Assembly: GCF_030161575.1 (NCBI RefSeq)
Contig: NZ_BSUL01000001.1
Location: forward strand, 2,523,809 to 2,587,808
Direction of reading: 5' to 3'
DNA from: Arenivirga flava
GTDB taxonomy: Bacteria; Actinomycetota; Actinomycetes; Actinomycetales; Microbacteriaceae
Length of the DNA: 64,000 bases
Shown here one piece after another: positions 4,068 through 39,035 of the stretch (position 1 is its first letter; every line of letters begins with the position of its first letter). The notes under the pieces are model-generated. The model had not been told where the DNA came from, did no database searches, and worked only from the letters and a program-made list of their open reading frames with translations. Position numbers and translations under genes: made by a program.

Positions 4068-4108
4068 CCCGCGCCCGCCCGCGCCCGCCCGTCCGCCCCC
4101 GAATGCAT

Positions 4109-4165
4109 CGAGTTGCCGCATATGGCTGCCTCGAGTCCGTCGAAGCAGCCATACGCGGCAACTCG
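4109..4165. repeat. long inverted repeat downstream of aztB
   Basis: Two 21-bp arms (4109-4129, 4145-4165) differ at one base and flank a 15-base loop. Arms start CGAGTTGCCGC. RNA from either strand would fold into a very stable hairpin, so it could end or attenuate transcription between aztB and the next gene. No T-tract follows. No second copy was found in the window. Confidence 0.75.
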
Positions 4166-4225
4166 ACGCGGCGGACGGCGTCGAGGGCCCGCATCCGCTC
4201 CAACCCACCGCCCCTGAAAGGCACC

Positions 4226-24767: not shown

Positions 24768-24912
24768 GCCCTCAGCCTGCTCCTCACGGGCGCGGGGCGA
24801 CAGCGCCCGTTCGGCTCGACCTCGCATCCCCCGATCGGTGGATGCGGGGTTGCTCGCCCAGCCCAGCCCAGCCCAGCCCTGTCCTGCCTCCCCGCAGCAT
24901 CCTCCCCCTCCG

Positions 24913-24971
24913 CAGATCGGCGGGTCCCTGCCGCTTCGACGTCGCGCGAGCAGCAGGAACCCGCCGATCTG
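24913..24971. repeat. dispersed palindrome, family 2, copy A
   Basis: Starts CAGATCGGCGGGTCCCTGC and ends with its near complement GAACCCGCCGATCTG. Arms about 20 bp around a variable centre. Three relatives lie at 37666, 38835 and 38973. Confidence 0.8.
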
Positions 24972-24988
24972 GGCGGTGCAGGGAGGGG

Positions 24989-35526: not shown

Positions 35527-36546
35527 TCAGCCCTCGCGCACCCGCAGCACGCGCTTGCCGCGCGTGCGTCTCGTCTCCCCTGCGGCGTGCGCCTCGGCGG
35601 CCTGCTCGAGCGGATGCACGGAGCTCACGTGCACCGTCACATCGCCGGAGTCGATGAGCCGGCCGATGACGGCCAGGGTCTGCGCGTTGCCGGCCACCTG
35701 GAATCCGCTCGCCCGCACGCCCGCCGCGGCGGCCTCGTCCGCCATCGTCGGCCAGCTGCCCGTGGGCGCGTTGACGAGGATGCCGCCCGGGCGCAGCAGC
35801 GCCAGCGAGCGACTGCCGGTGTCGGCGTGCACGTTGCCGATCAGGTCGATCACGACGTCGACCTCGTCGAGCACCTCGTCGAAGCGCTCGGCGCGGTAGT
35901 CGATCACCCGATGGGCGCCGAGCGAGTGGAGCCAGGCGGCGTTCTCGGCGGAGGCGGTGGCCGTCACATGGCCGCCGAAGTAGGCCGCGAACTGCACCGC
36001 GAAGTGGCCGACGCCGCCAGCGCCCGCGTGCACCAGCACCCGGCTGCCCTCGTGCACCTTGGCGACCTCCACGACCATGCCCCAGGCCGTGAGCGCGGCG
36101 CACGGCACCGCCGCGGCCTCGACGTGCCCGAGGGACGCGGGCTTGCGCGCCACGGCCAGGCTGGGCGCGCTCACGAACTCGGCGTACGAGCCCGTGCCGC
36201 GCGGGAACGGGAGCAGACCGTAGACCTCGTCGCCGGGCTGCAGCGGATGCGCCGCGTAGGGCGCCTGCACGACCACGCCGCTGAAGTCGAGGCCCAGCAC
36301 CGCGGGGTAGTCGGTGATCCCGGGGGTCACGCCGCGACCCGCGCGCGTCTTCACGTCGAGCGGGTTCACGCCGGCGGCGACCACCTCGACCAGCACCTCG
36401 TCGCGCAGGCGCAGCACGCGCGGCACCTGCGCCGCGCGCAGCACCTCCGGCCCGCCGGGGCCGTCGTACACGGCGGCGCGCATCGTCTCCGGCAGCTCGG
36501 ACGCTGCGACGACGGCAGCGGTGCTGGTGGTGGGCGTCTCGGGCAT
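35527..36546 (-). CDS. zinc-independent quinone reductase-type NADPH oxidoreductase
   Basis: 339 residues from ATG 36546 (GGGGAG upstream). MDR superfamily: catalytic GroES-like domain (VVAAGVNPLDVKTRAG, LGLDFSGVV) and Rossmann domain with the NADPH loop VLVHAGAGGVGHFAVQFA. Cys ligands for zinc are absent, as in the quinone oxidoreductase (QOR) branch. It likely reduces quinones or enones with NADPH. Single gene. Confidence 0.87.
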   Translation of the reverse strand: MPETPTTSTAAVVAASELPETMRAAVYDGPGGPEVLRAAQVPRVLRLRDEVLVEVVAAGVNPLDVKTRAGRGVTPGITDYPAVLGLDFSGVVVQAPYAAHPLQPGDEVYGLLPFPRGTGSYAEFVSAPSLAVARKPASLGHVEAAAVPCAALTAWGMVVEVAKVHEGSRVLVHAGAGGVGHFAVQFAAYFGGHVTATASAENAAWLHSLGAHRVIDYRAERFDEVLDEVDVVIDLIGNVHADTGSRSLALLRPGGILVNAPTGSWPTMADEAAAAGVRASGFQVAGNAQTLAVIGRLIDSGDVTVHVSSVHPLEQAAEAHAAGETRRTRGKRVLRVREG

Positions 36547-36672
36547 GGTGTCTCCCCGCTCATCGAAGGCTGCGCGGGCGTCTCGCGTCCCGGCCCGCAC
36601 GCCTCCATCCAATCGTGCGGATGCTTCCACGGCGTTACGGGCAGGTCACCGTGTCGTGCGCGGTGCGTCCGA

Positions 36673-37536
36673 TCAGTAACCGCGGCTGCGAGCGACCTCG
36701 AGGCCGTCGAGCACCATCTCGGCGTAGCGGATGAGCGTGCTGATCTGGGCTTCGTCGCGCTCGATCCAGCGGCACTGCGGCACCTCGTCGAGCACTCGGA
36801 AGTCCTTGTGCTGCTCCCAGACGAGCAGGGTGCGCTCGGCGCCGAGCACGTACTGCTGCCACCAGATCTGCCGCAGGTAGCCGCGCGGGATGCTGCGCCA
36901 CGGCTTGCTCGTGGTCTTGATCTCGGCGAGCTCGACCGAGCCCGAGCCGCGCGAGACCACGCCGTCGGGGGTCGCCAGGTGCTGCGGCGCCTCGAAGGCG
37001 TGGAACAGCGCGTTGCTCGCGGCGATGCCGTGCTCGTCGAAGACCCAGCGGGCGATCACCGGCTCGCGGCGACGGCCGTGCTCGGTGTAGGCGTTGCCGC
37101 CGAAGCCCGAACCGTTGAGCTTCTCCCACAGCACCGACTTCACGGCGCTCTCGCTCGTGAGCTTCGCGACATCGGTGGCGGTGATGCCGCGGCTGCGGGC
37201 GCGGATCCACGACACCCGGTCGTCCGAGTAGGCGACGATGCGCGAGCGGTGGTCGACCATCGCCGACGGGTCGAGCGACTGCCGAGCCTGCTGCTCGCGG
37301 ATGCCCTCCGGCTGCGGCGCACTCACGATCAGCAGCGGCGCGGCGGCGGCGGCCGCGCGCTGGGCGATGCCCGGGTCGAGGTCCACGGGGGAGACGGGAG
37401 CGGATGCGGGCTGCGGCGAGGCGTTGCGGACGGGCGCCGCCTCGAGCACGGCCTCGGCCACGTCGAAAGGACCGGACGCGGGGCCGAAGAGGGGGACCGA
37501 GCCCGCGCCGGCGTCGAAGGCGCTGCTCGAGGTCAT
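36673..37536 (-). CDS. YqaJ-type viral recombinase family nuclease
   Basis: 287 residues. After a 95-residue Ala/Pro-rich lead, the lambda-exonuclease fold appears: SRGITATDVAKL, YTEHGRRREPVIARWVF (catalytic Glu region), LATPDGVV (Asp), VELAEIKTTSKPWRSIP (Glu-x-Lys active site) and YLRQIWWQQYVLGA. These are PD-(D/E)XK nucleases that phages pair with an annealing protein; chromosomal copies are common in Microbacteriaceae. No annealase or other phage gene is nearby. Likely a domesticated recombination nuclease (inference). Confidence 0.85.
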   Translation of the reverse strand: MTSSSAFDAGAGSVPLFGPASGPFDVAEAVLEAAPVRNASPQPASAPVSPVDLDPGIAQRAAAAAAPLLIVSAPQPEGIREQQARQSLDPSAMVDHRSRIVAYSDDRVSWIRARSRGITATDVAKLTSESAVKSVLWEKLNGSGFGGNAYTEHGRRREPVIARWVFDEHGIAASNALFHAFEAPQHLATPDGVVSRGSGSVELAEIKTTSKPWRSIPRGYLRQIWWQQYVLGAERTLLVWEQHKDFRVLDEVPQCRWIERDEAQISTLIRYAEMVLDGLEVARSRGY

Positions 37537-37665
37537 CCATCCATTGTGCGCCCTCGCCGCGCGCAGCCCGTCCGCCCGCCCGCGCGTCGTGCATCCGCTC
37601 GCGCTCCTCGTGCCGATCCGCTCGCCCTCGTCCTCCAGCCGCCTCCCCCTCTCCGCCCCCAGCAG

Positions 37666-37726
37666 GCAGATCGGCGAGTTCGTGCCGCTACGACGAGCGG
37701 GATGCGACCCGGAGGCGCCGATCTGC
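37666..37726. repeat. dispersed palindrome, family 2, copy B
   Basis: Starts GCAGATCGGCGAGTTCGTGC and ends GCGCCGATCTGC. It abuts the stop of the following minus-strand gene. Same family as 24913, 38835 and 38973. Confidence 0.8.
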
Positions 37727-37728
37727 GG

Positions 37729-38637
37729 TCAGAGAGCTCCGCGAGCGGCGAGGATGCGAGCGATCTCGCGGGCCATGACCCGCAGATCGTCGCTTGCGGT
37801 CACCCGGATGAGCAGCCATCCGTCGGCCATGAGGCGGCGGTGCCGTTCGACGTCCCGCCGCCATTGCGCCGGGTCGGTCCGATGCTGGTCGCCCTCGTAC
37901 TCGATGGCGGTCCGCCGCAGCTCGTCCACGAGGTCCACGCGTCCGATCCGCCGGCCCCGCCGGTCGTGCACGGTCGGATTGACGTGCAGCCAGGTGATGC
38001 CGACGGTCACCAGCTCGTACCGCAGCAGCGACTCCTTGCGCGAATCGCTGCCTCCGTCGAGCAGCGGGAGCGCCTCGCGGAGCCGTCGCACCCCCACGGT
38101 GCCGCGGGGCAGCCCGGCGAGCGCATCGGCGAGCTCGGACCGCGTCGCCAGCGCCGGGCGCTCGCGGTCGCGCAGGAGGTGGTCGCCCGCCGCCACCAGG
38201 TCGGCCGTGCCCAGGCTCGCCGCGAGGTCGCACCACGTCCGAGCCGGCGACGTCACGGGCGCGCCGGAGACGGTCCGTCGCTCGTGCGGATCGAGCCGGC
38301 GCGAGTGTCCGGCGAATCCGCGCGCCTGCTTCGCGCGAGCCGGCGCAGGTGTCGTGACGTGAAGGACCTCCGAACGCTCGAGTCGCGCCGGCAGCGGGAT
38401 GCCGTAGAGGATCGCGGCGGTCTGGTGCGAGAAGACGGCGCCCTCGGGGATCAGCGGCGCGGCGGCGATGGCGAGATCCCTCGGGGTCCGAGGGGTGCCC
38501 CGACGCCATCGGACCCCGCGCAGCGGAGCCTCGAGATCGGCGCGGCGCAGCCTCCCGGCCGGGAGCCCTGCGACGCGGGCTCGTCGGACGGTCAGCGGCA
38601 GGCGCACGGACGGTGGCAGCGGTCGCGGGGTTCTCAT
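37729..38637 (-). CDS. DUF559-like / AbiEi-like protein with endonuclease-fold C-terminus
   Basis: 302 residues from ATG 38637; starts at 38748 or 38736 are also open. N-terminal part has the winged-helix-like layout of AbiEi-type proteins (VAGLPAGRLRRADLEAPLRGVR; FSHQTAAILYGIPLP). The C-terminus carries the very-short-patch-repair/DUF559-like nuclease pattern: RVDLVDELRRTAIEYEGDQH and LMADGWLLIRVTASD. Abundant in Microbacteriaceae genomes and of unknown role; a toxin-antitoxin or defence function is only suggested. Flanked by family 2 palindromes on both sides. Confidence 0.7.
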   Translation of the reverse strand: MRTPRPLPPSVRLPLTVRRARVAGLPAGRLRRADLEAPLRGVRWRRGTPRTPRDLAIAAAPLIPEGAVFSHQTAAILYGIPLPARLERSEVLHVTTPAPARAKQARGFAGHSRRLDPHERRTVSGAPVTSPARTWCDLAASLGTADLVAAGDHLLRDRERPALATRSELADALAGLPRGTVGVRRLREALPLLDGGSDSRKESLLRYELVTVGITWLHVNPTVHDRRGRRIGRVDLVDELRRTAIEYEGDQHRTDPAQWRRDVERHRRLMADGWLLIRVTASDDLRVMAREIARILAARGAL

Positions 38638-38773
38638 GCTCGACGATGTGCGAGGCCGCGCGTGCTCGGACCGCCCTCCACCGCGCGTGCTGCCTGCGAC
38701 TGACTGTGGAGGGATGCTGCTCTGCGGCTCCTCCATCCGTCCCGTCACCAGCCCCCTGTGCGCATGCCCCTTA

Positions 38774-38833
38774 CCCCGACTCCACCTCCCTCACCCCGCC
38801 TCCACCTCCCTCATCCCGACTCCACCTCCCCCA
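38774..38833. repeat. three tandem 20-bp units
   Basis: Units CCCCGACTCCACCTCCCTCA, then the same with CGCC for CGAC, then with T for the first C and CCCA at the end. Period exactly 20. One strand is nearly pure pyrimidine. Confidence 0.85.
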
Positions 38834-38834
38834 T

Positions 38835-38897
38835 CGCAGATCGGCGGCTTGATGCTGCTCCCACAGGGGTAGAGCAGCGCGAAGTCGCCGATCTGCG
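38835..38897. repeat. dispersed palindrome, family 2, copy C
   Basis: CGCAGATCGGCG at the left pairs with CGCCGATCTGCG at the right; inner arms ATGCTGCTC / GAGCAGCGC. Starts one base after the tandem repeat. Confidence 0.85.
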
Positions 38898-38972
38898 AGT
38901 TCCAGGTGCGGTCCCGCCCGGGGCGCCGCGCCCGCCTGCCACACCTGCGCCCCGCCCCTCGCCTCGCGCCCT

Positions 38973-39035
38973 CGCAGATCGGCGGGTTCGTGACGCTCTC
39001 GGCGGAAGAGAGCAGCACGAAGGCGCCGATCTGCG
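38973..39035. repeat. dispersed palindrome, family 2, copy D
   Basis: CGCAGATCGGCG and CGCCGATCTGCG at the ends; inner arms GTTCGTGACGCTCTC / GAGAGCAGCACGAA. Best-preserved copy, 63 bp like copy C. Confidence 0.87.

Follow-up and report, generated by a model that had tools for sequence, protein, structure and literature searches.

The locus described here raises the question of what a predicted nuclease gene belongs with: the second nuclease gene beside it, or the palindromes around it. The window, by which we mean the whole 64,000-nucleotide stretch analysed (contig NZ_BSUL01000001.1, positions 2,523,809 to 2,587,808), lies in the 3.25 Mb genome of Arenivirga flava (G000; family Microbacteriaceae) and contains a YqaJ-domain gene and an AbiEi/DUF559-type nuclease gene that are neighbours on the minus strand. 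A preliminary description had set these two genes down as a pair, neither with a known partner, and had proposed them as a phage defence or recombination module or as repeat-processing enzymes. The lack of a protein partner was borne out as far as was checked, but the palindromes themselves go with the DUF559-type gene. We give an even chance to the reading that this gene and its palindromes form an enzyme-palindrome unit, working like a pair of repetitive extragenic palindrome (REP) and REP-associated tyrosine transposase (RAYT) with an unrelated, Vsr-type enzyme.

Palindromes around the nuclease gene

The nuclease gene (37729..38637, minus strand, 302 aa) is intergenic, with the YqaJ gene and a response regulator as its neighbours. 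Its open reading frame could open at 38748 (37729-38748, 339 aa), but 38637 is the probable start and is preferred since it fits the conserved N-terminus of relatives. Around the gene stand three 61-bp imperfect palindromes of the form GCAGATCGGCG-N39-CGCCGATCTGC, one downstream at 37666-37726, between the two genes and 2 nt past the stop codon of the nuclease gene, and two upstream, at 38836-38896 and 38974-39034. The palindromes earlier placed between the genes and ahead of the nuclease gene were thus found again, whereas a relaxed scan of 36400-36750 for a comparable one after the YqaJ gene yielded just three matches of 26-30 bp. In the window, GCAGATCGGCGNNTTCGTG gave 13 matches at up to 3 mismatches against 0.77 expected, some of the 13 lying outside palindromes, and the DNA folding z-scores of the three locus palindromes were -3.3, -5.9 and -7.6. 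At 38768-38833, immediately ahead of the nuclease gene, three tandem copies of a CCCTCACCCCGACTCCACCT-like unit of 20 bp were observed. The only known RNA families matched in the window at gathering thresholds were three tRNAs.

Stem covariation was measured in 18 copies of the 61-mer from the window genome and a sister species (G072), an alignment from which L014 and L022, being near-identical, were excluded together with three of the five matches at 3 mismatches. Changes on both sides of the stem were found at 11 of 24 pairs, and five of five measures lay above 500 shuffles and all slid controls, with kinship among the copies uncontrolled. All but one of the covarying pairs (10 of 11) fell in columns 12-24, a region left free by the search patterns. 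These compensated inner-stem changes suggest, from the aligned copies, that palindromy itself matters, beyond the arm sequence. Comparison of upstream with downstream copies gave 27 compensated changes against 5.0 expected, a count that is biased because the hairpins were chosen by their pairing; this selection bias is smaller in the inner-stem covariation test.

The same layout, with other palindromes, was found to recur around related genes of soil bacteria. Of 40 related genomes, 20 had homologues of the nuclease at an E value of 1e-20 or below, and at least 80 named actinobacterial nuclease loci were fetched, the layout counts given here being those among the matches listed. Under a strict hairpin criterion (perfect outer arm of 10, span of 40-85 and at least 62% paired), hairpins stood upstream of the gene in 44 of the 80 listed loci, downstream in 41, on both sides in 27 and on at least one side in 58. 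The 80 loci are not all independent, since several per genus share one site, so that these counts overstate the number of separate events. In the same loci 85 hairpins were found in 64.4 kb of flank and 28 in the 446.5 kb lying more than 1 kb away, a 21-fold difference in density. The span of the flanking palindromes had a median of 57 bp (quartiles 52-61, n=118). At L216 and L218 the gene has several palindromes on either side, and a GACACGCCG-like core recurs within the stem.

For comparison with control genes, loci with less than 300 bp of flank were left out. Among named loci whose flanks reach 300 bp on either side, at least one hairpin was present in 53 of 74 and hairpins on both sides in 25 of 74; with the same flanks, both-side hairpins were present in 10 of the 28 loci that bear G handles. 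Strict hairpins were found upstream of 0 and downstream of 1 of 20 YqaJ genes, at none of six response regulators, and on each side of one of two copies of the neighbouring ADH gene. The difference between nuclease loci (53/74) and YqaJ genes (1/20) gave a Fisher p of 5e-8. Matches to the nuclease protein at E 1e-5 also included eight plasmid records and one phage record, on which a reading of the gene as plasmid or phage cargo was set aside; two plasmid copies were inspected, one with palindromes on both sides (L230) and the other with an upstream palindrome only (L231).

The two palindromes of a locus match each other and differ from those of other loci. A relaxed criterion gave candidate hairpins both upstream and downstream at 55 non-duplicate loci, 48 of which had an upstream-downstream similarity score of at least 20, a score reached in 0.9% of 647 between-locus comparisons (95th percentile 9). 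Both kinds of score were maximised over all candidate hairpins, and an earlier unmaximised null, for which L051 and L058 were dropped from the 110-gene set, agrees. Arm similarity followed protein identity (n=48 loci, Mantel r 0.52, 0 of 2000 permutations), and did so for pairs below 55% identity (r 0.19, 0 of 2000 permutations); in the match and co-divergence tests L035 was dropped as a duplicate of L091. Paralogues in one genome scored 5 between loci and 14 and 21 within them (L036/L054), or 6 between and 21 and 17 within (L090/L111), while L095 and L125, also of one genome, scored 9 between and showed partial resemblance. The window genome itself has a paralogous nuclease gene (L026, G000:C1:1348804-1349649) flanked by a second palindrome family, GAGTTGCCGC..., of which another copy lies in the window at 4108-4166. 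As judged from these comparisons, each nuclease gene usually goes with its own matching palindrome, and paralogues go with different ones.

Scattered copies and a relocated unit

Palindromes of the window family are also found away from the gene. In the window genome there were, per strand, 20 matches at up to 3 mismatches, some of the 3-mismatch matches possibly being chance, and 15 at up to 2, with none for a reversed-pattern control. The sister species G072 had three copies under a laxer pattern (up to 2 mismatches), two of which flank its nuclease gene. Across 299 family genomes the exact-arm pattern was found in two, the second with a single match that is possibly chance. Another family, CGCAACACGCCG, had 9, 8 and 11 copies in three congeneric species and 2 copies in a genome of another genus, with 0 copies in the other 295 of the 299 genomes. 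Close relatives of the nuclease (52-56% identity) were present in three of these four genomes, in one of them split by a stop codon. This split gene (L203/L228) belongs to G266, the genome with 11 matching palindrome copies, and from it we suppose that palindromes may outlive the enzyme.

The copies in the window genome were observed to cluster around dnaA (C1:2328528, on a 3.18-Mb contig). All 11 distinct sites at up to 2 mismatches, the window copies at 24912, 37666, 38836 and 38974 among them, lay within 0.66 Mb of it, in the range 1724768-2983401, for which the chance under uniform placement is about 6e-5, in a test conceived after the data. At up to 3 mismatches 12 of 14 sites lay within this distance, the outliers at 330487 and 984458 possibly being chance matches. 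One tally had left out these two 3-mismatch matches and kept the one at 2794084; the recount was made without such a choice.

Ten sites with joined flanks were compared between the window genome and G072, and five of them could be bridged. At three of these (L013, L017 and L018) the palindrome is missing from G072, one (L020) is ambiguous, and at the last (L019, the further window copy of the family at 24912-24972) the site is common to both species and the palindrome is present in G072 with a different inner stem. At L013 (L013:1501-1751, G000:C1:2866635-2866885) a reading frame that by eye resembles an integrase/recombinase is followed downstream by three near-identical palindromes, repeated in tandem every 95 bp, and the intergenic region of G072 is about 140 bp shorter there, even discounting the three palindromes.

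In Jiangella the whole unit was found relocated. Loci L131 and L142 (about 4 kb on each side) have no common flanking sequence at E 1e-20, and the similarity of L131 to L110 and L142 starts at or inside the upstream palindrome and stops at or about 25 bp past the downstream one.

The predicted enzyme and the readings weighed

The window nuclease matched PF18741 (REase_MTES_1575) at E 1e-6 (29.5 bits, under the curated cut-off of 38.2) and DUF559 (PF04480) at E 0.043, likewise under the curated cut-off, and was matched by AbiEi models of PADLOC at E values down to 2.8e-12. In an alignment of 50 relatives MTES_1575 matched 47 (E 0.01 or better) and DUF559 matched 33. A sequence search of solved structures with the nuclease gave no match. 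In the AlphaFold2 model (pLDDT 95.6), residues 4-194 (38056..38628, minus strand) were aligned by VIA-align with AbiEi 6y8q_A (Z 11.3, 175 residues, root-mean-square deviation (rmsd) 6.0), and residues 199-301 (37735..38043, minus strand) with the catalytic domain of I-Bth0305I, 3r3p (Z 12.2, rmsd 2.7 over 95), and with Vsr, 1cw0 (Z 10.4, rmsd 2.6 over 97). The two matches given by Foldseek at E 0.001 or better were Toxoplasma mitoribosomal proteins with a TM of 0.28-0.29 over the model, I-Bth0305I appearing at E 0.2-0.4, and a mitoribosomal chain also stood third in the VIA-align list (Z 10.6). Since the superposition of the Foldseek matches was poor overall, the fold assignment rests on VIA-align. 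Residues E202, D235, E246, H252, D262 and R265 are among those invariant in the nuclease domain of the 50 proteins; we take them, from Vsr-like enzymes, to be putative catalytic residues. The protein is probably an AbiEi-like DNA-binding part fused to a nuclease of the Vsr/I-Bth0305I type, with a Vsr-like PD-(D/E)XK fold in the predicted model and an AbiEi-like two-domain part indicated by the 6y8q match and the PADLOC models.

Such a protein could act on the palindromes beside its gene. The unit would consist of palindrome, nuclease gene and palindrome, about 1.1-1.4 kb in all, and its AbiEi-like N-terminal part would recognise both arms of the palindrome that goes with the gene, in the way that AbiEi antitoxins recognise paired inverted repeats. 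In the passages of the source papers that bear on this, AbiEi binds two 23-bp inverted repeats that are 3 bp apart (PMC3985639), and Rv2827c binds two pairs of 23-bp repeats with 13 bp within each pair (PMC7319586), giving operator spans of 49 and 59 bp; set beside these, the 57-bp span suggests that the palindrome would be the binding site of the AbiEi-like part. The Vsr-type C-terminal domain would nick or cut DNA at or beside the palindrome, possibly in its extruded hairpin form, and repair of the cut would copy the palindrome, and at times the whole unit, to new places. Non-autonomous copies would account for the scattered palindromes, and the one upstream of the nuclease gene would double as its operator. 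More broadly, and with a confidence just short of even, we propose that these are widespread, undescribed small actinobacterial elements of selfish character, in which the AbiEi-Vsr fusion, an enzyme of restriction/homing type, would recognise its palindrome, cut there and thereby spread palindromes and occasionally itself around chromosomes, an origin independent of REP/RAYT in which an operator would have turned into an element end.

Several observations weigh against the enzyme-palindrome unit. No flanking hairpin was found at the strict criterion in 22 of the 80 listed loci, and the window-genome paralogue L027 is without a flanking palindrome. The link between palindrome family and gene is good and not perfect: G225 has 8 copies of CGCAACACGCCG and yet a diverged palindrome beside its nuclease gene, in G125, where the exact CGCAACACGCCG pattern is absent, a close relative (52%) stands beside a diverged palindrome, and G263 has 2 copies of CGCAACACGCCG while its best nuclease relative is just 42% identical. 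Between the window genome and its sister species just half of the ten sites were comparable, the junctions are blurred by divergence of the intergenic sequence, and a palindrome could as well have been lost in one species as gained in the other. The relocated unit is a single case, and movement of the whole unit would be rare, since in genera such as Curtobacterium the gene mostly keeps to a single site. Neither a target-site duplication nor a fixed insertion sequence was seen at the compared sites or printed copies, and the two palindromes of a locus vary in orientation (27 direct, 17 inverted and 5 tied).

The palindromes could instead be AbiEi-type operators, the upstream one repressing the nuclease gene while the enzyme itself works elsewhere, phage defence being one example; the downstream one would block read-through or loop to the upstream one, and the scattered copies would make up a small regulon or titrate the protein. 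Such a role would suit the AbiEi fold match of the N-terminal part, the agreement of the median span with the AbiEi and Rv2827c operators in those passages (PMC3985639, PMC7319586), and the position of the strict upstream hairpins, 37 of 44 of which end 54-113 bp ahead of the assigned start. A pure operator, however, requires no matching copy at the stop codon, which is overlapped by 22 of the 41 strict downstream hairpins, and it does not account for many copies in one species against three in its sister; the compensated inner-stem changes point moreover to palindromy itself. Given the matching stop-codon copy, the copies elsewhere, the difference in copy number between species and the relocated unit, an operator alone would be insufficient, and we regard this explanation as less likely than the unit, though a serious rival to it.

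It is quite improbable that the palindromes are terminators or RNA hairpins without a special tie to the nuclease. Downstream palindromes are indeed found close to the stop codon or on it, and the copies in the window form good DNA folds, but the upstream copies precede the gene start and match the downstream ones, the palindrome sequence is locus-specific and tracks the protein, other genes tested were mostly without palindromes in what were small controls, and no T run was found in the 25-base flanks of the 18 copies (15 from the window genome and 3 from G072). Hardly any credence is left for a two-nuclease defence or recombination module made of the YqaJ-type exonuclease (36673..37536, minus strand; PF09588, E 1.8e-9) and the DUF559-type protein. 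The genes do lie adjacent on one strand, as first described, in the window genome and in G072, but in the co-occurrence check these were the only genomes where YqaJ adjoins a DUF559-type gene, and no YqaJ was found in the stretches fetched for the 80 listed nuclease loci (up to 4 kb on each side). Of the 25 family genomes in the 40-genome set, the window genome included, 19 had YqaJ, 17 of them with a single match, and at seven YqaJ loci of other genera the response regulator known from the window was close to YqaJ and the stretch lacked a DUF559-type gene. Because the pair does not recur, and YqaJ is common in the family without the nuclease gene beside it, a general module is refuted, which leaves room for a lineage-specific link at most; YqaJ appears to be a bystander outside the unit, and the pairing looks incidental from the genomes compared. 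The proposal of repeat-processing enzymes fared better for the DUF559-type gene alone, whose link to the palindromes is well supported, but not for the pair. In G072 (L030:1-1316), the reading frames upstream of the unit look ABC-transporter-like by eye and none matched a response regulator, perhaps reflecting a rearrangement near the upstream palindrome.

Comparison with known systems

RAYT genes are flanked by REPs, and a REP has a GTAG-type tetranucleotide 5' of its stem. The arrangement described here resembles these REP/RAYT systems ('REPtrons', TnpA-REP) in that palindromes flank an enzyme gene and are repeated in the genome. Passages of PMC8266576 describe an enzyme with cognate palindromes in many genomic copies and the co-evolution of the two, and mention GTAG. 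The enzyme of REP/RAYT is an HUH (Y1) transposase, whereas the one here is predicted to combine a Vsr-like nuclease with an AbiEi-like part; no Pfam match to an HUH transposase domain was found in the window protein or among the six families of the 50-member alignment. The palindromes differ as well, being longer (median 57 bp) and present in tens of copies at most, and in the copies checked (15 of the window genome and 3 of G072) neither strand has GTAG immediately beyond the stem. Classic terminal inverted repeats have a fixed inverted orientation, unlike the flanking palindromes here, and a classic transposon with such repeats and a target duplication was rejected on the variable orientation and the lack of a visible duplication.

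The type IV toxin-antitoxin system AbiE is resembled, through AbiEi and Rv2827c, in the predicted N-terminal fold and in upstream paired inverted repeats of similar total span. It differs in that the protein here would be fused to a nuclease domain and the palindromes lie also downstream and elsewhere in the genome; no adjacent AbiEii nucleotidyltransferase toxin gene was found in the window, whose locus alone was checked. To the homing endonuclease I-Bth0305I and to Vsr the likeness lies in the predicted fold of the catalytic domain and its invariant acidic and histidine residues. Genes of Vsr-like homing endonucleases lie in an intron or intein or beside a conserved target gene that the enzyme cuts; the window gene is intergenic between palindromes and not in an intron or intein. 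Proteins with PF18741 or PF04480, including VsrA of Caulobacter, have the same nuclease domain family as the relatives studied here. In the passages concerned, the MTES_1575 domain is placed in the Vsr fold (PMC3710099) and a DUF559 protein is termed Vsr-like, with a proposed role in mismatch repair (PMC12907096); flanking palindromes, a feature of the loci described here, go unmentioned in those passages.

Among the papers listed in searches of the open-licence PMC literature we found no description of DUF559/MTES_1575 or AbiEi-Vsr genes with flanking palindromes. To our knowledge, the HUH RAYTs are the main case in which an enzyme has been linked to the way palindromic repeats spread through bacterial chromosomes. 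Each gene comes with palindromes of its own, so recognition rules should be readable from the natural pairs and testable by swaps. If the proposed unit is real, it would point to a function for the many proteins that so far go just by the names DUF559/MTES_1575 or AbiEi-like, and it would be a second, unrelated enzyme with cognate palindromes, meaning that a palindrome-spreading lifestyle has evolved more than once.

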